The notes beneath the pieces are model-generated. The model was not told the DNA's origin, did not search any database, and worked only from the letters and a program-made list of their open reading frames with translations. The translations under genes and the position numbers were made by a program. This document shows, piece by piece, positions 9,001-51,798 of a stretch of DNA of 64,000 bases (position 1 is the first letter of the stretch; every line of letters begins with the position of its first letter). Source of the DNA: Plicaturopsis crispa FD-325 SS-3 (Eukaryota; Basidiomycota; Agaricomycetes; Amylocorticiales; Amylocorticiaceae); contig KN832560.1 of assembly GCA_000827205.1 (NCBI GenBank), positions 1,020,743 through 1,084,742 of the forward strand. The letters are read 5' to 3'.

Positions 9001-9342
9001 CACACGGAGATAAAAGCACAGATCATCTGGCATCAGACACCGAAGCTGGCCATCAGTGGCCATCCCGCCGTATCATGAGCTCGCAACCATGTGCACGGCT
9101 CCATTTCTCGCACATGCCACTTCAACGGACAAGGTGGACAAGCACAGCAGATCAAGGTTCTGCATGTACAGCTTAGCGACACGCACTCTCAGGTCTGGCC
9201 CTTGTCGCATTGCGGCACCGCGAATACCAAAATCGAACGGGGGCGCATGGAAGATATAATCCCGAAGATGTAATAAACATTGGGCATCGAGTCGATAGGT
9301 AGAACACACATGATCCAGTAATTAGTATCGGCGGGGAAGATG

Positions 9343-12300
9343 TCACCGTTGACGATTTGGACCACTCCAGGAGGGGACGAAAGCACTCGTGGACGGACTG
9401 AAAAAGTTCGGAGACGGAGTATTTGCATTGCTGCTCGGATATTTGCTTGGCGCGAAATTCGTGTGCAGAAGATTCCCCCGCACGGCGAACTGAGGTATTG
9501 TGGGGGCCACTGGTGCCGGCGCAACAGACGCAGGAGGTGCACCTGCAACAGCTGGTGGTTTCCAGTTCTATCATCAAATGTATTAGGATACCAACCATTG
9601 AGAACAAATTGAAATAACATGCACGTACGTATTGGCGACCTTCTCTGTATAGCTCTTCGAGCTTGTCATCGAAGGTACCCTCCTCCTCAAATGCATGATA
9701 CGCTTTGTAAAGCATCAGAGCAGTGCGCGCATCCTCAATAGAATCGTGCGTGTCGGTCTGAATGTTCTCGTGCAAGACGAACCACGCGAGAAACCGCAAG
9801 GATAGCCTACGTTGTCTAGCCTTGATGAAATAGAGGTCGACCGTGTCTATCACCTGTTCTGGCGGCACGAAGATATCTGCATGGTACACGCCGCTTAGAC
9901 GATGCTCGTGATCATAAGCTATACACGGAGACTCACTGATGATCCGGAAATCCTTGGACAGACCATGTCCTATGAAAATGCAGCCGCGATCCACAAGCAC
10001 CCTCAATTTCTTGTACACAAGCTTCAAAGGTGTCAGCGTATACGGAGAAAGGTTAGGGTCGAGATCGCCGACTGTCAACATATTCTTAGAACGGCAAATG
10101 GACAATATTTTGGGAAATGAGCGCACATTTGATGCCTGAGAACTCCGTCAGATAGTCGACGATGACCTCGCTGGTGTGGATATGGTCGTCGATAAAAGGA
10201 AGGGACTGTTTGGAGCCATCTCCACGTAGCACAGACACTCGTGCGAGACTGAGTCGAGCAGGTCGCAGAACTTTCTTCGTCCCATCCGAACGGTATTCTA
10301 TTTCTTCCTGAAGACAGAAATAAACATCAGCAGATATCCACAGAGTCCAGCTAAGCGACGACTTGCCTGCTGCATCGAGACGAATTCCGCATCGATTGCT
10401 ACAAGCGTTCCCGGTCGGGGCAGTTCTTCAAACCGCAAGCACTCGTGTTTGATAAGATTTTTGTCCCGATGACTGCAAAATCTGGTGAGCTAGGATAGAG
10501 CATACGCTCTAAAGCAAAGAGGCTTACGCCGATATAGAAGTATCGCAGCTTAGAATGGAGGGGTCCATCTCAACAGGTAATCCGCTATAGTCGAGGTTGT
10601 CTTGCAGATCGACCCGCTCTAAGTACATGACTGCCGGGACCTAGGAAGAAATATATATATTATTAAAGTGGGGGAGACGAAGAACCAAGTCCTTACCTTC
10701 CACTTGCCAGGGAAGCTCAGTGCCTCGTGCTCAGAGATATTCCGGACGACAAAATCGTTGAACAGATACCAAGGGCTCGCATTGTCTCCGCCCCCCTCCG
10801 CATCGGGAACTGGAAGACATTAGGACATACACTCTTATACTGCGCTGAGTGGACACACCTTTGACAATGGCGACGAGATGCGACTTCTTTTCTTTCGTGA
10901 CGATCTGGACAACTAAAGACTGTGGCAAATTCAGTAAAATGGTCTGAGCAAAAACACCGTAAAAATCTTACTCGAAGTGCATATACCGCACACTCTGGAT
11001 CATCAACGCCCTCTGCTTGGCCCCGGACTTCGACATGAGGTTTCAAGAACGTCTCGTTCCGACTGTCGAGCCAGAATTTCATGTTCTCGTCGTTATACAC
11101 GGAGGCATTGATGGCCAGGAGGGGCGGCAGGTCTCGTGTTGGTATTGAACGCCGTGACGAGAAGTTCGCAAATTGTTTGCACGTCTGGCACGTAGCCTTG
11201 TGGACCATTTGCCGCATCAAGGAGTTGCGCAGAATGCTGGCAAAGTCAGATGGAACGGGGGGCTCATTAGAGGTAGCCTGTGTTTTGGAGGGATTGTTAA
11301 TGATGAGTACGATGACGAGAACGAGAACACAAACCTTGCGGGGGTAAATCATGTCTACTATATGTGTCATATTCTCCTTCTCCCGTACGGCTTTACAGCT
11401 CATACAGACGATGATATTCTTCGCATCGATACCGAGAAGTTGGGTGATAGGTGCCGCTGCCGGAGAATAGACATCGGGCGTATGGTTCGGTTGCCTTACG
11501 AGCAAAGGGTTATGGGGGAACGCGTTTCCCTCGAGACTGAGGTGGTCGATGAGGAACCGATTGAACGACTGAATCATATGTGCATAATTGACGTCGGTCG
11601 ACTCTCGCCCATAGTCAATCAGTTCGATTGCATTTTGTGCTTGAATAGATAAAATCAGCCATCCTCCTTGATGCTAGAGAATGTACGGAAACGCGTACCT
11701 TGCGCAAGGTTTCCGACGGTCTTGCAGAAATTGCTTGATTGACAGTTGATCCCGCTCGCGTCTTGGAGCATGCATACAACGAACCCGAGCTCGCAAAGCA
11801 GGCAGTGCTCCCTAGGACAATTTGTCGCGATATGCGACTTGGCCAAACGCCTTATAGGCCGGCAATGATGCATGACCTGGACGATGGGGTTCGTGTATGA
11901 GTTCAAGATGTGCGTTTCCAGTCCGCTATATGCGGTTTTGTTGTAAAATCTAGATATTAACTATGTGAGCTCAACACGTCTACCGGACCTATGTGAAAGC
12001 ACACATACCCAAAATCGAAATCTTCGACACCAAACTTGGAGTATTCGATTTCAACGTGTTGATACATACGAGGTATTTCTTCGCCGTTGAAACCAAACGT
12101 GGGGGTGTCAGGTTCAACCTAAGACAACTTCGTATGAGAAACTCTCTGATGAGGTGAGCAGAGATTGCTTACCTCGCTTTTTCTTGCCTTTCCGCTCCTG
12201 AAGCGCCCGTTGTCTTTTCGAGGCACAGTGACCGCCAGGTTCCGTCGTCCCTTCAGCTCCTTCGGCATGGCTGCATATGCTACATTGTCGTTCATCTTCA

Positions 12301-22230: not shown

Positions 22231-23484
22231 TCATGCCGACAAGTATTGCTTAGCATCAACGGCTTCGATAGCCAGACCCTCCCGGCGGAGGGCTCTCAGT
22301 TGCAGACCGACCTGCGGCGAGACCTTCTGGGGGAAAAACAGTCTGACCCTCTCCAGCTCTGCGGGTTCTGACGCGCCGCTACCGCAATACGGGGCTGCAG
22401 ACTTGAACCGCGACCGGAGCATTTGGACAAGCGACAGTCCGTCTGAAGCGTGCGATATATGCAGCTTTATTGACCGCAAGTTTGGCAGCAAGAGATTCGG
22501 CGGGCGCGACCCGCCCCTTGTGAGGGACGAGATGAGTTCGCAATCTGCGCTATGTAGGCCAGCGAGGTTGAGCTTGGATAAGGAAGGGATTTCGGCGAGG
22601 CCTGCGATAAGATTTGTAAAACTTTGCGACGTGTGGCTCCACCTCACGGAGAGCTTGTCGAGAGGGCACTTCGAACGGGCAAGGAACGATGCAAAGGACG
22701 GTGGCACGTCGCGGGTCGTCCGGGAATCGACGACGAGTTCCCGTAGATTGGGGAGCGTGAGGTGTTCAACGACTGCGGTGAAAAGCACTTCATTGGACTC
22801 GTCGGACAAGAGGACCAGAGATTCGAGTGCCGAGTGTTGGATTGAGGGAACCACGCTCGCATCGAGGCTTTCGCGCTGTATGCCGCGGTCGTCGAGTACG
22901 CATTCGCGGAGACTGGGAAGGTGCTGGAAAAGGAAGGAGAAACCGTGATTGGTAGACGCCACGTAGATGCATGTTATCTGGGCCCATGGGAGCTTCACGG
23001 CCGTTGAGAGTAGACCCCCCTCGATATTCAGGTTCCGCAATGCTGGTGCGTGTTCAAAGGCGTTAGACAGAACTTGAACATGCGAGTGCGATTCGTCGCA
23101 ACCAACAAGTCGGATTTTGAGATGATGGAGGAGTGGGATGCGCCGGCGAATGGCCGAAAGTGATTTGGCACTCTCTACTGATGTTTGCAGAGTCAAACTT
23201 TGCCAACGAGGGGAGTACGCCATGAGCACTTGAAGCACAGGCTCGCTGGCCCCGCCCACGGTAAAATATTTGGCGCCAAGATGTGCGTGCAGCGTTAACG
23301 GGCAACCCCCAGTACGTGAAAGCCACAACTTTGATATTGGCAGTTTGCTTGGCTTGTCGAGATCCAAGTACAGCGCCGTCCATAGTCGTGGCGTCGCTAA
23401 TGCAACTGCTCGCCAAAGTCGACAGATGCGGCCCAGGATCATGGGCGCGAAAAAAGGTTTAGGGTGCATTGGCAAGATCCGACC

Positions 23485-24064
23485 GAGTGTGTAGTCGATT
23501 GTTAGCAGTCGCTTCCCAGTCGGTTCCCAAGAGGGAACCGAGCGAGATTATCGCCGGTGCACACTGCTATTTCCACGATGACCCCGAATACCTTACAAGA
23601 TGCCGACGGCCACGGCTATCTTCGACGCTGCCCAAGCGCGCCTCTAGCCCCGCCGTACGCTGTCTAACACGTCGCTCACGAACTTGTTTCACTATTTTTT
23701 GCAAATATTTTGTGGTAAATGTGGTTTCTAATCAATAATCACATTACTTGTACATTTTGTTTACATTTTAAGAGACAGCGGTAGCAGATGGCTACTTTTG
23801 TTTCAGCAGTGAAATGGCTGCAGTCGTCCCAAAGGTCGGGTGTCAAAAAATGGGTGTGCGCGCCACGGTCAAACCGATTCGAACGCGGCGGCGACGCGCA
23901 CGGGCGGTCAGTGCGCTGTGAGCGACGACGCGGAACGCGTCGGGGTACGTTCGGGGGCCTCCGCGCGTCATTTTGCGGCGAGGGCAGGCACGATTAACAT
24001 TTGAATTTTTAGAAGTTTACGGGATACCGCGATCTGCCGAATGCTAACAATCGACTCAACCCTC
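23485..24064. mobile_element. Non-autonomous hAT-like DNA transposon (MITE), copy 1, 580 bp
   Basis: The direct repeat gatccgacc at 23476-23484 and 24065-24073 brackets the element; it is 8-9 bp, the size expected of hAT-type insertion. The ends are inverted repeats: left gagtgtgtagtcgattgtta, right (complement) gagggttgagtcgattgtta, with 20 matches over the first 23 bases. The interior is AT-rich on one side and GC-rich on the other, with no transposase frame. Removing the element and one target copy restores the F-box frame across GGR|ILPMHP. Confidence 0.82.
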
Positions 24065-24117
24065 GATCCGACCTCCGGTAGTGAGACATTGCATGAAGAT
24101 CTCCGAAAGTAATTCGG

Positions 24118-24886
24118 AGTTCGTAGTCGATTGTTACCGTTTCGATAAGCGAGATCCGATTCGAACTTCGGTTCGCTCTTTCCGCTCTTTCACAATTTCA
24201 AAAAATGAACCGTTGACACATTTCCGGCAGTCTCCGACAGTACCCGCGGCGCGCTACCGCTGCCACCTCGATGCGCGGGGAGCGCGTTTTCCACACATTT
24301 CAAGCCCTAATGATGCTCTAAGTAATATAAATGTATCTAGGAATAAAGTCCTTCAAATACTGTTTTTTTCCCGCTCGAAACGACGTTGAACGAGAGGAAA
24401 AAGATGTGCGCCGGGCACGCTGACTAAGCAACTGCCTTATCGGGAAATATCGAGGCGGGACCATCGCGTCCTCGTTGCGCCTCGACATGGAGCGGGGGGC
24501 CTCCTTCAATGAGATTTCTAGTGAGCAACCAGACTGTGGAAAGACATATAAGTCTCTTCACTTATACCACAGCAAGAATTTTTATTTTCTGATTTTATTT
24601 CGATTTTATTTCGATTTTATTCCTTTTTCTCACTATGAGTAGTCCCGTGCAATTTCGACATACCGAGAGCTACCTCCATATCTCGGGGCCACAGAGGAGC
24701 ATACACATTAATTAACGGTCAGTAGAAAGAGCATGGCGTGCGGTTGGACGCGACTCGCGACGCGACGCGTGTACGCGTTCAGGGAAGTATTGCAACGTGG
24801 ATCGCAAATACGTTACTGAACCGCGCTGGAAGTGTGAACCCGATCGAATCGATCGAATCGGAAAGGTAACAGGGGACTCATCACTG
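24118..24886. mobile_element. Non-autonomous hAT-like DNA transposon (MITE), copy 2, 769 bp
   Basis: The direct repeat agtaattcgg at 24108-24117 and 24887-24896 flanks the element (8-10 bp, ends ambiguous by two bases). The termini are imperfect inverted repeats that share the core AGTCgattGTTACC (left) and AGTCcccTGTTACC (right, complement), followed by related gattcg-rich sequence. The left end shares AGTCGATTGTTA with copy 1, so both belong to one family. The interior has an 11-bp tandem (gattttatttc, three copies, 24591-24623) and no transposase. Removal restores PPELL|SEIFMQ in the F-box gene. Confidence 0.78.
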
Positions 24887-25236
24887 AGTAATTCGGGTGG
24901 CAGCCGACGAATGGGCGAGAAGAGAGTTTCGTGGTCCCTGAGCGACTGCGCGAGTTCGGCGCGGGGCCAGAGAAGGCGCTCAATCTCTTCGTTTAGCCTA
25001 GCGACCTGGCGGTCGATGCCCAGTAATTTGGTTTTGAGGCTTTGAATGGTTTTCCGTGCGGCCTCAGCTTCGTAGTCCGTCAGTGTGGCGTTGGTTTTGA
25101 GGTAGTCATGCACGGGAGACATGCAAGGTTCAGAAAGTGCAGTGTCAGATATATGGCTGCCACACCCGGAGCAGGACAAGATAGGTCTCGGTGCCCGTGT
25201 CATATTTCTGGAACAAGTGAGGGAAGGAGAAGCCAT

Positions 25237-26265
25237 AGTTAGTACTGAAAATCTTGGAGTAGTGCGGCAAACTAACCTGATTTTCGACGCGAGTTTGTGA
25301 ATGATGGTGAGATGAGAGGGTGTCTCGGTTGCGAATGGCGCACTGCAGAAAGTCCGATTTATGGGGAGCAAAGTCCGCATACCGTTCCGCGGACTCAGCC
25401 ACCACGGACCTGTGGCGGAAATCCCGTAGTAAACAACACCTACAAACAACGCTTTGCCTCAACGCCGCGTCCCCATCCAATCCCCATCACCGTCGTCGCC
25501 ACAAGACTTACCTGTACGCCAAAGCGCGCGACTTACGCTCGTCGCTTTGCCCGCCCTTTAGGCCGTTCTGACAATGGTTGTGTTTCCCGTATATAGATGT
25601 GCTGCAGCAGCACGAATAGATCATCCTTTCCCCACTCATCTCCGAGCTCTTCCAAACCTACTGTCCCCCCACCGAGAGCTCAACACCGTTGAACGGATAG
25701 TATGCCTGCAGATCAAGGCCACCTCCAATGCGGCCCGATCGCACATCGCGTAGGCCGCTCCGAGAAGTGTCAGAGCATCATGTACCCGACGTCGAAGACA
25801 ATGGAATGCGAGCAATAGCCTTTTCCACCGATCGAGATAAGAGGAACAATGAGCATTTGCGGGCGGCTACTGCCGATATGCTAAAGTGTCAGGTCCGCGC
25901 AAAGGTTTGCGCACCGGCGCGCGGACTGGTACGCAGACCTTCCTCCCAGTGGATCGAACGTTCTCGCGCACTGAGAGCAGCTGTCGATGTCCTGTGGTTT
26001 TCATGATAAATTTTTTTTTGAAAAAAAAAAAAAACAATGAAACGAGAGAAAATTTCTCTACACGCAAGAAAGACAGGGGTCATGAAAACCTGATGTGGAA
26101 ATCCCGACGCAGTCTGGCGCGATCTCGGCGCGCCCATTGTGCGGCGGGGATCCAGCACCCTCAGATGATATTTGAGCTGAAACTCAGTGCCTTGCTGTAT
26201 TCGGTCGTCACCCATGCCAGGCTGGCAGGTACACAAGGATCGATTTCGTCGAGATAAAGGCTCTC
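25237..26265. other. Intergenic region with A/T homopolymers and a short hairpin
   Basis: About 1 kb between the F-box gene start and the NOT4 stop; both genes run on the minus strand. It contains a T9 tract next to an A14 tract (about 26008-26035). It also has an 11-bp inverted repeat, ggttttcatga near 25995 and tcatgaaaacc near 26080, and a GC-rich palindromic patch near 25890-25930. No gene and no target-site duplication were found. Confidence 0.5.
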
Positions 26266-31481: not shown

Positions 31482-32962
31482 CTAGAACCACATCGATACC
31501 GAGAAACTAGTATCTTCGCTCCGCATTGCATGCCACCACCCGGGAGGAAATATCAACAAGTCTCCGGGGTTGAGCGTCGCGCTCATCGCTTGAGGGACTA
31601 CATCTTTCCAGAACGCAGGAAATTCGCGCCGGCTGATTTCTTCTTGGTCCGGGGTGACGAAGACGTCTACGCGGGACGTATTGGACATCGATGGCGCGAC
31701 CGTATTCGCCGCAGGATTATTTGCTGACGCGGACGATGGTGCATACGGGTACATAGACGTGGAAATTGCGGACGGTGTGAGCCATATCGTCTTTCGACCA
31801 GCCACTTGAGCTGTACAGTTCGCGTAAGGAACGGACTTGCTTTGCATAGGTAATAGGAAACGCACCGTAAGCATTGAAATAAGGATCCTATAAGCACAGT
31901 GAAACTATAAGTCGCAACACTCGCTTACTGTGAAATTAGGTACGCACGGTGTGTGCCGGTGACACCGTCCCTTTAGGCCCTAGCCAAGAATTCAAAACAA
32001 GCTGCTCCTCGTTGGCAGGCGGCGTGTAGTCGGGATATTCAGTTGTCGGTGCTGGGCAGGTATACACATAATCGGGGAGGCATATATCGTCTCGTAACTT
32101 TGGAAATTGCATGAATAGATTGTGCTGTGCCATATACAGGACGTCACTGGACGACTCAAACTCCAGCGAAGAAAGGAGCTCGTCCCATGGCATAAGCTTT
32201 TGGGTCCAGCTTTCTGCCCGGTAGTCAGATCCTACTTCGACGGGAACAACGCGTCCAGGGCCGGCTACTGTACGCAGGTATTCGAGGGAGGCCCAAGGAT
32301 GTGACGTGAGAGCCGGCCAATCGGATACATAGCCTCGCAAGATGAAAGGGTATGACCGAAGAGTACGAAATTGTTGCAGAGATGGCGGCTTGGGCAGAGA
32401 TGGTATTTCTTGGCCGGATGTCGCCAGCGGTAGAGGCGTCCCACGAATCGACATGGATGTATGCCGACCGATGGCTGGCCTTGGGGCTGATGCAAGGTAT
32501 TGACTTTGCACTCGCTGGATCACGTCAATAATAGCATCTAGGCGCCCCGGCCCTGGGGCACCAGCAATAATAATACCGCGATCCAACCGTGCGATACACT
32601 CCGTGAAGGTATCTTCGGGTGAAGGACCCGGGTGGCTCACGTCTGCGAGCGACCTGAGGAGAGAAGCGTCCGTGTACAAGCGCCTCCAGCACCAGGAATC
32701 GCAGGCTAAAGGCATCTCTGCATGAGAGACTTCGAGCAGTCGATCAAGATTCCTGCAAGCCGTGTCTCGCGATCCTTCGTCAAAAATATTCTCAGCCGCT
32801 GAGAGAAGGAGTTTCATGTTCTCCGTGCCGCACTGCGATAGGTCTACACACAAATGAGCCGTGGCACATCTGATGCAACGAAAATGCATGCTCGCCTGCG
32901 CTGATGCTCTGTTCGATCTCTTTCTTGAGCTCCTCCCAAACCTCCAACGCCCAGACCGACAT
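31482..32962 (-). CDS. JmjC-domain (KDM8/JMJD5-like) 2-oxoglutarate oxygenase
   Basis: The C-terminal JmjC domain carries SYPFILRGYVSDWPALTSHP, VLYMAQHNLFMQFPKLRDDI and the iron ligands: His-x-Asp in SPAHTDPYFNAYAQ and the distal His in PPGWWHAM. GRKTIWL fits the 2-oxoglutarate site. Domain order matches KDM8/JMJD5 (helical N-terminus plus JmjC), a protein hydroxylase or putative histone-tail enzyme. A small exon encodes DPYFNAY. The N-terminal junction SISA|DLSQCG appears to use a GC-AG intron. The start at 32962 (MSVWALEVWEELKKEI) is favoured because an in-frame ATG at 33280 would leave only 66 bases to the divergent MOT1 start and adds unconserved-looking sequence. Confidence 0.8.
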
Positions 32963-45016: not shown

Positions 45017-47148
45017 ATGGGCTGGTTCACATCCCTTTTCTCGCCAGAGGGATCTACAAACTCGAGACGAGGACAGGCCATGTCGTCGACGCATGAAGCC
45101 TTCTCTCTCCCAACATCCTCGCCCGGCTTCGTGTCACACCCAGACGCTTTCAATCCGGACATGCTGAACAACTTGGAGCCCGATTCTGCCACGAGTGCGT
45201 CGTTCACGTACCCCCCGCAGTCCAGCGGCGCATACAACTACGTGCCCACATCGTAAGCAAAGCCCTATGAAGGTTATCTATGCACTACCAAGCTCACTTC
45301 ATCGCATACCAGTTCTCGCTCAAGACCCTCCTCGTTGTTGCCTTTGCATCACACGTCCGCGTCGCCAACCCATCCATACCCGCCGCTTCCCCAGACGTGG
45401 GCCCGCCTGCGTGCCTGGCTCGCACGCGAATACCCCGAGCTTGGCGATACCCTCAACTACGGCATTCTTCCCCCCGATCTCGCCACCATCGAGATGCAAT
45501 TCGGTTTTTCATTGCCCGCCGTTGTGCGCGAGTCGTATCTCTGCGCGGACGGCCAGGAGGCCGAGTCCGCAGCGGGCTGCTCGGAGGGTCTCTTCTTCGG
45601 TCTAACCCTACTTCCGCTCGAGGACGTGCTGGATGAATGGCGGTTCTGGCGCGAGGTCGACTCGGACCCGGCGACAGGCGCGAACCCCCGGCTACGTGAG
45701 GCAATGCGCTCGATACCACCCGGGTGGGTGCGCGCCGAGTACTCGCAACGGGGGTGGATTCCACTCATCGCAGACCGCGCCGGCAATTACGTCGGCGTCG
45801 ATCTGAACCCGGGTGAAAGTGGTGCGGTCGGGCAGGTTATTGTGTTCGGACGGGACTACGACACGAAAGTTGTGTTGTACAGAGGGGATGGACCGGCTGG
45901 ATGGGCGAAATGGCTGGCGAGTTTCGTGGAGGAGCTCGAGAGCGGTGAGGGCTATGAACTCGGGCAGAACGAAGCCAGCGAGGGTAGCGAAGACGGCGTT
46001 GGATACGAAAGCTATTTCTTCGACGGAAGCGGGCGTGGTTCCGGTGACGGCGGTGGAGAAACAGGACCCGGTGGACTGCGGCTAGCGGGCGAGTACAGAG
46101 GGTGGAGTGTCTTGGATGCGTGGGCAGATCGTAGTATAAGACGCTGGCACGAAGCGGGCGTCATTCCAGATCCCGCGGAAGAGAATGTGGAGGAAAAGGT
46201 AATGCGCGTCTCCATTTCGTATATCTATCATATTGACTCGGTTTACAGAAGAGCCAACTTGGAGGTGTCCTTGACTTTGCTGCTGCGTCCTCTGGCACAG
46301 GCGCAGAAGTGCCTATCCCTCTCCTCGCTGAGGCGTCCGATGCACCGTCGTCTGCGCTCAATAACGTGGCAAATACATCACCACGGCCTCCACCTCCAAC
46401 GATATCTATCACGAAGCCTCCCGCGCCTCTCCCTGTCGATCTTCCTACTCCTCGGGACCTCGTTGCCCTTCCTTCACCGCCGGATTCCACTCGCTCATCT
46501 GACGATTTCGACCGTGATTTAGAGTCGGGAGGTCCCGATCTAGAGCTTGGACGTGGAATGCGGCAACCCCCTCGTGAAGAGGCAGTCGTAAGGCGTTCCA
46601 CCCCTTCAAACGCAGATGCCAGTGGATCCCAGCCCGAGTCTCTTGTCACGCTGACACCGGCTGTGGAATCGTCCTCGCAAACGGCTCCCTCTCGCAACAA
46701 CTTGAGCGACATCACGGACTTGCTATCGGATTCCACAGAAGTGTTGGAGGGCGCTGCGCCTATCACCCCGTCCTCGCCTGCGCCGAGCAAGTCACCAGAA
46801 ACGCCGTCCGTCCCCATTCCGGAACCCGAAGCCGCGCCTGCAGTGACCGAGGAGCCTGTTACAGAGGAGCCGGAATCAGAAACAGCGGCGGACACCACAA
46901 TTCGGCTCATCGGTGGAGGGGGCGTCGTGGGGACCGCTCAAGAGGACGAGGATGAGACAGCGGAAGACGCTGAGCCCGACGCCGCCTCGGAGGTGACATC
47001 CGTCAAGTCCTCCGACTCGGTACAAAAGACAGGAAAACACGAAAAGAAGAAGAGCATCTCATCCGGCATAAAAAAGCTGGGCAAGATGGGTGGCGGAAAG
47101 CGGAAAAAGGACTCTGTTAGTAGTTTGAAGGACGCGACGGCGGCTTGA
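45017..47148 (+). CDS. KNR4: KNR4/SMI1 cell-wall assembly regulator
   Basis: Exon 1 (45017-45252) encodes MGWFTSLFSPEGSTNSRRGQ. It joins in phase to an exon from 45313 and, after an intron near 46200-46250, to the C-terminal exon. The SMI1/KNR4 domain is clear: TWARLRAWLAREYPELGDTL; YGILPPDLATIEMQFGFSLP; SEGLFFGLTLLPLEDVLDEW; GWIPLIADRAGNYVGVDLNP; GQVIVFGRDYDTKVVLYRGD. The last 250 residues are disordered, rich in Ser, Pro and acidic residues, and end with a basic tail (KKLGKMGGGKRKKD). Knr4 links the cell-wall integrity (Slt2 MAP kinase) and calcineurin pathways to glucan synthesis in yeasts. Confidence 0.9.
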
Positions 47149-48511: not shown

Positions 48512-51500
48512 ATGGCGTCGACGTCGCTCAGCTTAGAGCATATCACCGACGCTCTCGCAGCCTCGCCAGACGGCGGCGCGACACTCGACCTTACCCACAA
48601 GAACCTCACAGATGTAGGCGAGTCGGGCGCGGAGGAGCTTGCGACGATTGGTCGGGAAAACCTCGTCGAGGACGAGAGTTCTGTTCTCCGGTACGTGTCG
48701 CGAAACTAGCATGTATACTCCGAGTTGACGCAAACTGTACAGAATCGCGTTAGGGTATAACCGACTCGCGACATTGCCTATGGCTTTCGCGTTGCTGTCG
48801 CGACTCCGATATCTCAACTTGAAGAACAATAGTTTCTCTGTGTTCCCCGACGTGGTATGTGCTTTCAACCACGACGACGGAACCATGTTTAACTGAACAA
48901 CTCGTTTTCTTGAAGCTGACCGTCATGAACAATTTGGAGATATTAGACATCAGTCGAAACAAGATAAAGCGACTTCCCTCTCAACCAGGCTCCCTTATTA
49001 ACCTTCGAGTGCGTGTCTCCTTGATTGACGTGTATATACAATGTTCATCCGTATACAGGTGTTTTCCATTTCACGGAATAAACTGACGAAGTTACCTGCC
49101 TATATTGCTGATTTCCGACACCTGAACATTCTCAAAGCGGATCACAACCCCCTTGAATGGCCCCCGAAATCTGTGATGGAACCGCCGACCGGCGGTGAGG
49201 ATCCACAGGAAATGAAGCAGTGGATCCGCTCCGTGCAGAAATGGATGCGTGAGGGTACTGCGACTCGTAAAGCAAGCGACGACTCGGTTGTCGAGAGAGA
49301 TGGCGAGAGCGTTGCGTGAGTCTGCTAGGACACGCTCGCCACTTTATACTGACCCGCTAGTCCTAGTGACGAGAGCTATGGCTCGTGGTCACGATTGGCC
49401 GTCAACGAAAGCGAATTCGATGCTGGGCTTACACCCCATGCACGATCATTTTCCATAGACTCGGACGTATCTTTGTATTCCGATTTGGATCGTGCGGTAG
49501 CATCCCAGCTCCCTTCTTCGTCTGATTCCTCCAGACTTGACCGACCTCCCGCATTACACCTTGGGTCTCTTCCCTCGTTCACCCCGTCCCACTCGCCTCC
49601 TCGCTCACCTGATAGCTATCTCCCAACACCAGACGAATCTGTCTCGTCAACTGATGAAGAAGCTACTGCCGACCTCACCAGCGCCCAAATGCGAGAGCAT
49701 ATACGGAATGCGTCGTATGTTGCTGGGCTCCACGGGCCTGATAACCGTCTTCTCGGGAAGAAAAGTCTCCCTGATCTTCGGACAGCCAGGATGAACTTCA
49801 ACGTACGCCAGAGGCCTCCCGAGATGCCTGCCCGACCCCGACCCTCGGTGCCAGAGTTGCCCAGCGTCGCCATCAAGGCCCTGGACGAATTCTCTATACC
49901 TTCCCCCTCTTCGCAGCGGCAGGATTCTGGTTCATCCGAAGGACGATCTCCACATCCTCCCGTCAAGCCTTTTTCGCAAGAGCCCGCTGCCGTATCTCCT
50001 ACCGCGACAGACCGCCCTGTTCCGCCAATGGATGTGGAGCGTAACTCCTACTTCAAACGACTGTCTGCACTTCCACATAACGCCGTCGCCAAGACCCTCC
50101 CGAAATCTTTGCTATGCCTCGTCGAGACTGCGCGGAGCATCCTGTTTGCACTCACGCAGGTCTATCAGTCGCTCCAGCACTATACGATATACGCCATCGA
50201 TGATCGGTTATCTTCCGTTCTCCGGAAGGTCCTCGATCCTGCTAGCCAGTATATGCTACAGCTTATCCACACGCTGGATAAGTTCGACACCATGAGTTGG
50301 AAGATGCTTCCACCGCCTGCGATATGCCGGGGCGTGATAGAAAGCTGTAGAGACACAGTGTCTGTCTTTGGGAAAGCTGTCGGGGTGTTGACTTTGCAGT
50401 TGAAGGTCTTGGCCACACATGACGATGTGCGATACTTACGGCAGATGATCCTCATCCTTTACGGTGCCATAGCAGAGATATCCTATGCATGGCAGGCAAT
50501 GGCTCCGCACATGGAGGCTGTCCAGCCATTGTTGCGTGAGCGCCGTCGGCCACCTTTTGCGAAGTCAGCTGCGGCATCATCGCCGACGCGAACACCAATT
50601 CCAGCGAGCGTCAGCAACCCGGAATCAGTCGCAGTCACCGTACAGTCGCCGCTATCTCCATCCACATCGTCACCAGTCCCAGGATTGCGGGCGCGTGGTA
50701 GCCAACCTTCCGTTCGCACGCACACGGCGCGCAGGCATGCAGGGTCGTTCAGCTCGAAGGACGTGGAGATCGGGAAGAAATTACCGTCGTTTGACCTTGT
50801 GCCCCCTTTTGCGTTCGGCGGCGTAGGGAGTCTGAGGGGCACTCTACGGCAGGCGACATCGCCTACACCGTCTACGTCGTCCTTTGGAGTTGGCCGCTCG
50901 CAGCCCATGGCGATGTCACCGTCGGGGTCTAGTGCAGTGAGCGCTCGGGCCATACTACCTTGGTCTCAGCATTCGCGGCAGGATTCGCAAGCATCGCTTG
51001 CTGGCTCGTCAGCATCGTCCTCACCTTCGTTACCGCGACCACCGCTCCTTGAGCTCCCTCCCAACTCGAAGACGCTCGTCGATAAGGAAGCACTCGATGC
51101 CATGAAGCTTGCTGTCGAGGCAGCACCCGCAGTTTGGGCGATGATGGACGACATCCTGAGCGATACGCCGGACATGAATGGCGACGTCCAGGAGAGCCTA
51201 GAGAGAGCGAAGACCGTAACAGAGCGACTAGCAGATAACATACGTGCAGTGCAGCAGGGGGATCCAGCGGCTGATAGAAAGACCCTACGTGAGGATGCAC
51301 ACGTGTTCGTGAAGGTAAATAGACCATACCTGCTCCCTGCTGTGCCCTATAAGCATGTACTGACGCCTCGTGTTCGCCCAGACCGTCGTCCAGCTGTCCA
51401 ACATTATCAAGACGTATGGTGGCACGCATGCCGTTTCGTCTGTCCTGCGCAGCAAGATGGTGAAGCTCACGAACTCGACGGAGGAGTTTGTCATCCTTCT

Positions 51501-51798
51501 GCACGTTTCGTCATTCTCGCCGTCCTCCACTCCTCGTCCATACTCGCCCATGCTCCTGCCCAATCCCTCCACTTCACAAATGGGGCATGCGGGTATGCAG
51601 ACCGCACCGGATGACGGTCGATTGGGTACTAACCTGTCGAGAAGCCGGAGCGCTCAGCCGTCTGCCAGCTCCAAACTTTCGACACCACTATCACGGGATG
51701 GGCCTAGGAGTGCGCAGCCGTCACAGTCGTTCAAAATAAACGGCCAACATCGACAGGGAGGGGGTTCGAGCACACATCTGGCCGTAGAAGCCGGCTGA
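48512..51798 (+). CDS. SOG2: SOG2-like leucine-rich repeat protein of the RAM signalling network
   Basis: A multi-exon gene starting MASTSLSLEHITDALAASPD. The N-terminal leucine-rich repeats are LGYNRLATLPMAFALLSRLR; LNLKNNSFSVFPD; LEILDISRNKIKRLPSQPGS; and ISRNKLTKLPAYIADFRHLN. Ser/Pro-rich sequence and the conserved SOG2 domain follow (LLCLVETARSILFALTQVYQ; ASQYMLQLIHTLDKFDTMSW; LAVEAAPAVWAMMDDILSDT). The last exon begins TVVQLSNIIKTYGGTHAVSS after an in-phase intron. Sog2 works with the Cbk1/Orb6 NDR kinase and Mob2 in the RAM/MOR pathway for polarised growth and septation. Confidence 0.9.

Follow-up and report, generated by a model that had tools for sequence, protein, structure and literature searches.

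Two short non-coding elements with inverted ends, inserts A and B, interrupt the F-box coding region of a single F-box/LRR-type gene in the window (the whole 64,000-nucleotide stretch analysed here, G000:C7:1020743-1084742, from a 33.2-Mb genome in 49 contigs). It is very likely that these inserts represent two MITE-like families with shared ends, which a cut-and-paste transposase making 9-bp staggered cuts would have inserted 52 bp apart in one member of a large F-box/LRR family, thereby turning it into a pseudogene, and that the enzyme most likely came from a Mutator-like (MULE-like) parent in the genome, for which a 10,487-bp element on contig C8 would be the best candidate. The initial annotation had already recognized two separate terminal-inverted-repeat insertions about 50 bp apart, and both prove to be non-autonomous.

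The interrupted gene lies on the minus strand (25449-22231). Its 5′ part (24896..25449) encodes an N-terminal region, coiled-coil-like by eye, and the start of the F-box according to the joined frame described below; the stretch that separates the two duplications (24074..24107) is host F-box coding sequence, as judged from the joined frame and the paralogue alignment; and the 3′ part (22231..23484, including one copy of duplication A) encodes the C-terminal portion of the F-box and an LRR-like region, with an open frame of 414 aa at 22231-23475. A genome search with this 3′ piece gave 73 matches, one of them being the piece itself, and when scanned alone it gives a weak PF12937 match over residues 14-37 that falls below the cut-off (14.2 vs 24.3 bits). 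After both inserts and one copy of each duplication (1368 bases) were removed by script, the minus strand read PPELL-SEIFMQCLTTGGR-ILPMHPKPFF, exactly as had been proposed, and the joined frame was open over 616 codons from 25449, or 545 from the likely ATG. The unjoined frame from 25449 meets a stop at 24714, within insert B, and stops are present in all six frames of both inserts. We propose that the gene is a pseudogene through these two insertions, and its F-box function has presumably been lost.

Insert A (23485..24064) is a 580-bp non-autonomous element with an imperfect terminal inverted repeat (GAGTGTGTAGTCGATTGTTAGCA and GAGGGTTGAGTCGATTGTTAGCA), the ends of which match each other at 23 of 27 positions, and its longest run without a stop is 84 codons. 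It is flanked by two copies of the duplication GATCCGACC (23476..23484 and 24065..24073). A second full copy, at C7:1443475-1444066, lies between matches to a tRNA synthetase and a GMC oxidoreductase and fixes the edges of the insert: it has its own exact 9-bp duplication (CAACAAACT) and differs from the window copy by 7 mismatches over 580 aligned bases and by two indels. The copy number of this type is low: in addition to the two full copies, C11 carries a terminal fragment of 174 bp and C4 a diverged relative (74% identical), which appears to correspond to the right portion of an A-like element, terminus included, and for which a left end was not found.

Insert B (24117..24886) is likewise a non-autonomous element with an imperfect terminal inverted repeat (20 of 30 end positions match each other), and its longest run without a stop is 90 codons; it lies between two copies of the duplication AGTAATTCG (24108..24116 and 24887..24895). 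The direct repeats beginning at 23476 and 24065, and at 24108 and 24887, were thus found where they had been placed, and of the two reported insert sizes that of A (580 bp) holds, whereas that of B (769 bp) is corrected to 770 bp. Two copies of B on C6 and one on C9 all begin with GAGTTCG in different flanks, and for this reason the tenth base (G) of AGTAATTCGG is assigned to insert B as its first base. An 11-bp tandem repeat, TTTTATTTCGA, is present within the insert at 24580-24621.

Copy number is low for B as well: B-type copies were detected at five places, and only those in the window and at C6b are complete at both ends, the C6a and C9 copies running into N. Compared with the window copy, 7 of 437 bases differ in C6a, 14 of 761 in C6b, 26 of 559 in C9, and 87 of 748 in the copy on C1 (86% identical). 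The last of these (G000:C1:1628578-1629324, L031 1067-1825) is diverged and has a degraded left end and no duplication; its right end adjoins an F-box-like frame on the minus strand (L031:1660-2094; PF00646 E 0.002, 18.4 bits, just below the cut-off of 20.5), and its left (far) flank does not carry on that frame. The C6 copies form a pair (G000:C6:988641-991127, L027 2042-4528) facing each other across 1050 N and identical over 438 bases, which may be due to an inverted duplication, to difficulties in assembly, or to a stretch that was withheld; a COX5B match is found approximately 0.9 kb from a C6 B-type copy. A 2.5-kb composite element made of these two inward-facing copies was considered and set aside, as the outer flanks mismatch and 1050 N lie between them. 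Considering the distances of A (7/580 and two indels) and B (7/437 and 14/761) from their nearest copies, the description of the insertions as recent is reasonable in a relative sense only, and we infer, rather than observe, their order and age.

With regard to their termini, A and B share approximately 20 bp at the left end and a 12-bp core, whereas a blastn comparison of their interiors revealed nothing past the ends but words of 10-13 bases. From these alignments, A and B are best described as two non-autonomous families with common ends; a single element family was rejected, only the ends being alike, and the initial annotation's term "related" applies to the ends and not to the interiors. 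Similarly, the inverted ends had been said to share AGTCGATTGTTA, which is present at both ends of A but at the left end alone of B, the right end of B reading AGTCCCCTGTTA inward. Both inserts are non-coding, under about 800 bp, bounded by inverted ends and present in more than one copy, as is characteristic of MITEs.

In total, 10 element places were counted (A and B in the window, two on C6, and one each on C7, C11, C9, C1, C8 and C4). An exact 9-bp duplication is found at four of them, namely, window A, window B, the C7 copy of A and the C8 element, and the chance of one such 9-base match is approximately 4e-6 each. At the other six, the duplication is imperfect or absent (C6b, with 6 of 9 bases, and C1) or not judgeable (C6a, C9, C11 and C4). 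A 22-base end pattern, SAGKKNKKAGTCGATTGTTASC, occurs at 12 genomic sites when up to 2 mismatches are allowed, compared with 0 for a reversed control; all but one of the 12 match perfectly and lie within the elements described here, and the remaining one, C1:1471885, is not assigned to any of them. Other genomic copies of the terminal repeats, whose absence had been named as a ground for rejecting the insertions, do therefore exist. At 3 mismatches, 25 sites were found vs 11 in the control, and nothing is built on those sites for this reason; among the 13 sites with exactly 3 mismatches, four are known element ends (three B right ends and one C4 end), and the other nine are no more than the control yields. 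For the 12-base core by itself, 12 genomic occurrences were counted, against 2 in the control, and one of the 12, C11:717127, is in none of the described elements.

The C8 element (G000:C8:428088-438574, L025 489 to L026 4974) spans 10,487 bp; its facing ends agree at 24 of 26 positions and are flanked by exact 9-bp duplications (TGCATTCCC). The ends of A are 79% identical to it across 58 bp and 96% identical across 27 bp. By eye, its minus-strand exons contain SIDTSF, ADAHKG, C-x2-H and TNxxE, and motifs of this type mark MULE-type DDE transposases; a relative on C3 is 36% identical over 152 residues, with counterparts of all four motifs, again by eye. These features make the C8 element a candidate source of transposase and the best candidate parent of the two families, and its protein may be the transposase that acted on A and B. 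Searches with ten C8 ORFs against Pfam gave sub-threshold matches only (best E 0.085), a 306-aa composite of the exons gave no Pfam match at E<=10, and a comparison with PDB gave chance matches only (best E 1.2). The genome's matches to PF10551 lie on C13, where the score exceeds the cut-off, and on C5, where it does not, with none on C8, and an hhalign comparison of the single rough C8 composite with the C13 and C5 proteins was negative (probability 0.2%). Searching the genome with the initial 2000 bases of this 10,487-bp element revealed interior repeats elsewhere and no second copy with an end. On the plus strand, one ORF (L026:2316-2780) contains a C-x2-C...H-x3-C stretch with a weak TRAFD1 zinc-finger match (E 0.16).

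Because these Pfam, PDB and PF10551 comparisons were negative, the elements are called Mutator-like by duplication length only. According to excerpts of a study of MULEs (PMC5225508), the duplications of these transposons are typically 8-10 bp and members share ends and duplication length with an autonomous element; their ends are typically long, over 100 bp, with 2 of 14 Aedes families having short ones. The 9-bp duplications observed here lie within that range, and long ends were seen in none of A, B and C8.

The two elements may have landed so close together at random and survived because the gene is expendable, or they may prefer F-box coding sequence or have met a local hot spot. Two of the 10 element places lie within 61 bp, an event with a probability of approximately 1.5e-4 under uniform placement in 33.2 Mb, and the C1 B-type copy adjoins the F-box-like frame mentioned above. 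For two F-box loci among 8-10 sites, the probability is 0.001 to 0.01 if the genome is taken to hold 146-330 F-box genes, each assumed to be 1.6 kb long. However, the events are few and the tests were picked after the fact, the four clean target sites have no motif in common by eye, and the same tilt would arise if insertions into needed genes were removed by selection. Moreover, the C1 copy lacks a duplication and the sequence on its far side does not extend the F-box frame, and the gene matches close to other copies are unrelated (tRNA synthetase and GMC oxidoreductase on C7, COX5B on C6). Target preference, as suggested in the initial annotation, is thus possible but thinly supported, and we consider it unlikely to be the better account. 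A broader proposal, that A, B and the C8 element constitute a lineage with 9-bp duplications and a DDE transposase outside the curated Pfam models, which tends to enter F-box coding sequence as a safe harbour because it is the largest expendable family, appears quite improbable.

The Mutator-like reading is preferred to the initial assignment of the inserts to hAT-type MITEs. Elements derived from hAT transposons commonly have short inverted ends and non-coding interiors, as A and B do, and the hAT duplication is 8 bp. Excerpts of PMC9674265 describe a mushroom with active hAT families whose non-autonomous members measure 597-631 bp. The duplications are, however, 9 bp rather than 8 bp at all four clean sites, on account of which the hAT label was dropped, and the scanned C8 ORFs and the exon composite gave no hAT match in Pfam; a hAT origin is therefore regarded as very improbable.

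It is even less likely that the inserts are new introns (Introner-like) and that the F-box protein is still made, although the host frame is kept and Introner families with duplications, inverted ends and median lengths of 30-654 nt are reported in excerpts of PMC9860276. Within 30 bases of its ends, A offers 8 GT/GC..AG pairs, 2 of which keep the frame, both after an in-frame TGA; within the same distance, B offers 7, and the one frame-keeping donor/acceptor pair near its ends is weak-looking (CCT|GTTACC, CGGAG|ATC). In addition, the C7 full copy of A lies outside any recognised domain. Another point in favour of introns is that length changes are tolerated within the family around the A join, as seen in an alignment of 11 paralogues, the ones fetched from among 72 further genomic matches. 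Ten of these 11 show no gap within 5 residues of the B join, and the eleventh, L043, has nothing but gaps there, probably because the frame chosen for it begins later; F-box homology is accordingly firm at this join. Paralogues differ in length around the A join, where only 2 of the 11 are free of gaps within 5 residues and none is within 8, and beyond this join the joined frame continues into a conserved APMILGRICRLWR stretch. The homology therefore does not fix the A join to the residue, and the F-box argument is weaker on that side. The claim that the joined frame is "exactly an F-box" is thus borne out at B and less so at A, and F-box homology across the joins, the absence of which in related species had been put forward as a second ground for rejection, was present in paralogues at B and only loosely so at A. 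The likelihood of the preferred explanation does not change on account of this weakness, since insertion A is sufficiently supported by its duplications and copies by themselves.

Finally, a misjoining of the inserts into the gene during assembly can be almost dismissed, since both inserts have exact 9-bp duplications and flanks in frame at a site without N, the only hint of such an artefact being the two C6 B copies, identical over 438 bases and flanking 1050 N, which may mean that the B family troubles assembly, or else that the N stand for a withheld stretch.

Returning to transposon insertion as the preferred reading, the genome contains at least 146 PF12937 matches (150 of 330 candidates scored), which agrees with the earlier view of this gene as expendable and makes the loss of one F-box member unremarkable. 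PF12937 is also described as enriched in one Ganoderma species in excerpts of PMC8955403. The event is best regarded as an ordinary transposon inactivation of a large-family member, the close spacing being a little unusual. Among the papers listed in literature searches on basidiomycete MITE/MULE or F-box insertions, none described the present case, judging by title and abstract opening. Elsewhere in the window, domain matches were found for RNase_T (9173-10126), Cupin_8 (31936-32889), DUF3535 (PF12054, 35659-36750), SMI1/KNR4 (45335-46522) and SOG2 (RAM signalling, 49395-51614). The locus provides one further case of transposons inactivating a member of a large fungal F-box family and, if the clustering reflects target choice, it may offer a way to ask whether DNA transposons of mushroom-type fungi exploit expendable multigene families.

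Several known systems resemble the one described here. MarorhAT of Marasmius oreades (PMC9674265, in excerpts) also comprises non-autonomous elements of approximately 600 bp in a mushroom-forming fungus, with ends shared with an autonomous element, but it belongs to the hAT superfamily, whereas the duplications here are 9 bp. Introners, as portrayed in excerpts of PMC9860276, are likewise short non-autonomous DNA elements with duplications in coding sequence, and they differ in that A and B have no convincing splice-site pair within 30 bases of their ends. MULEs, including Muta1 of Aedes aegypti, share with the present elements the 9-bp duplications, insertion in or near genes, and non-autonomous members whose ends are shared with a larger coding element, while the ends reported in the same excerpts of PMC5225508 exceed 100 bp and those observed here are short (approximately 20-30 imperfect positions), and the C8 transposase candidate has no PF10551 match. 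As for the host, the interrupted gene appears to have the architecture of the F-box-like (PF12937) family of mushroom-type fungi, with a coiled-coil-like N-terminus (by eye), an F-box and an LRR-like C-terminus, and it differs from that family in being interrupted twice.
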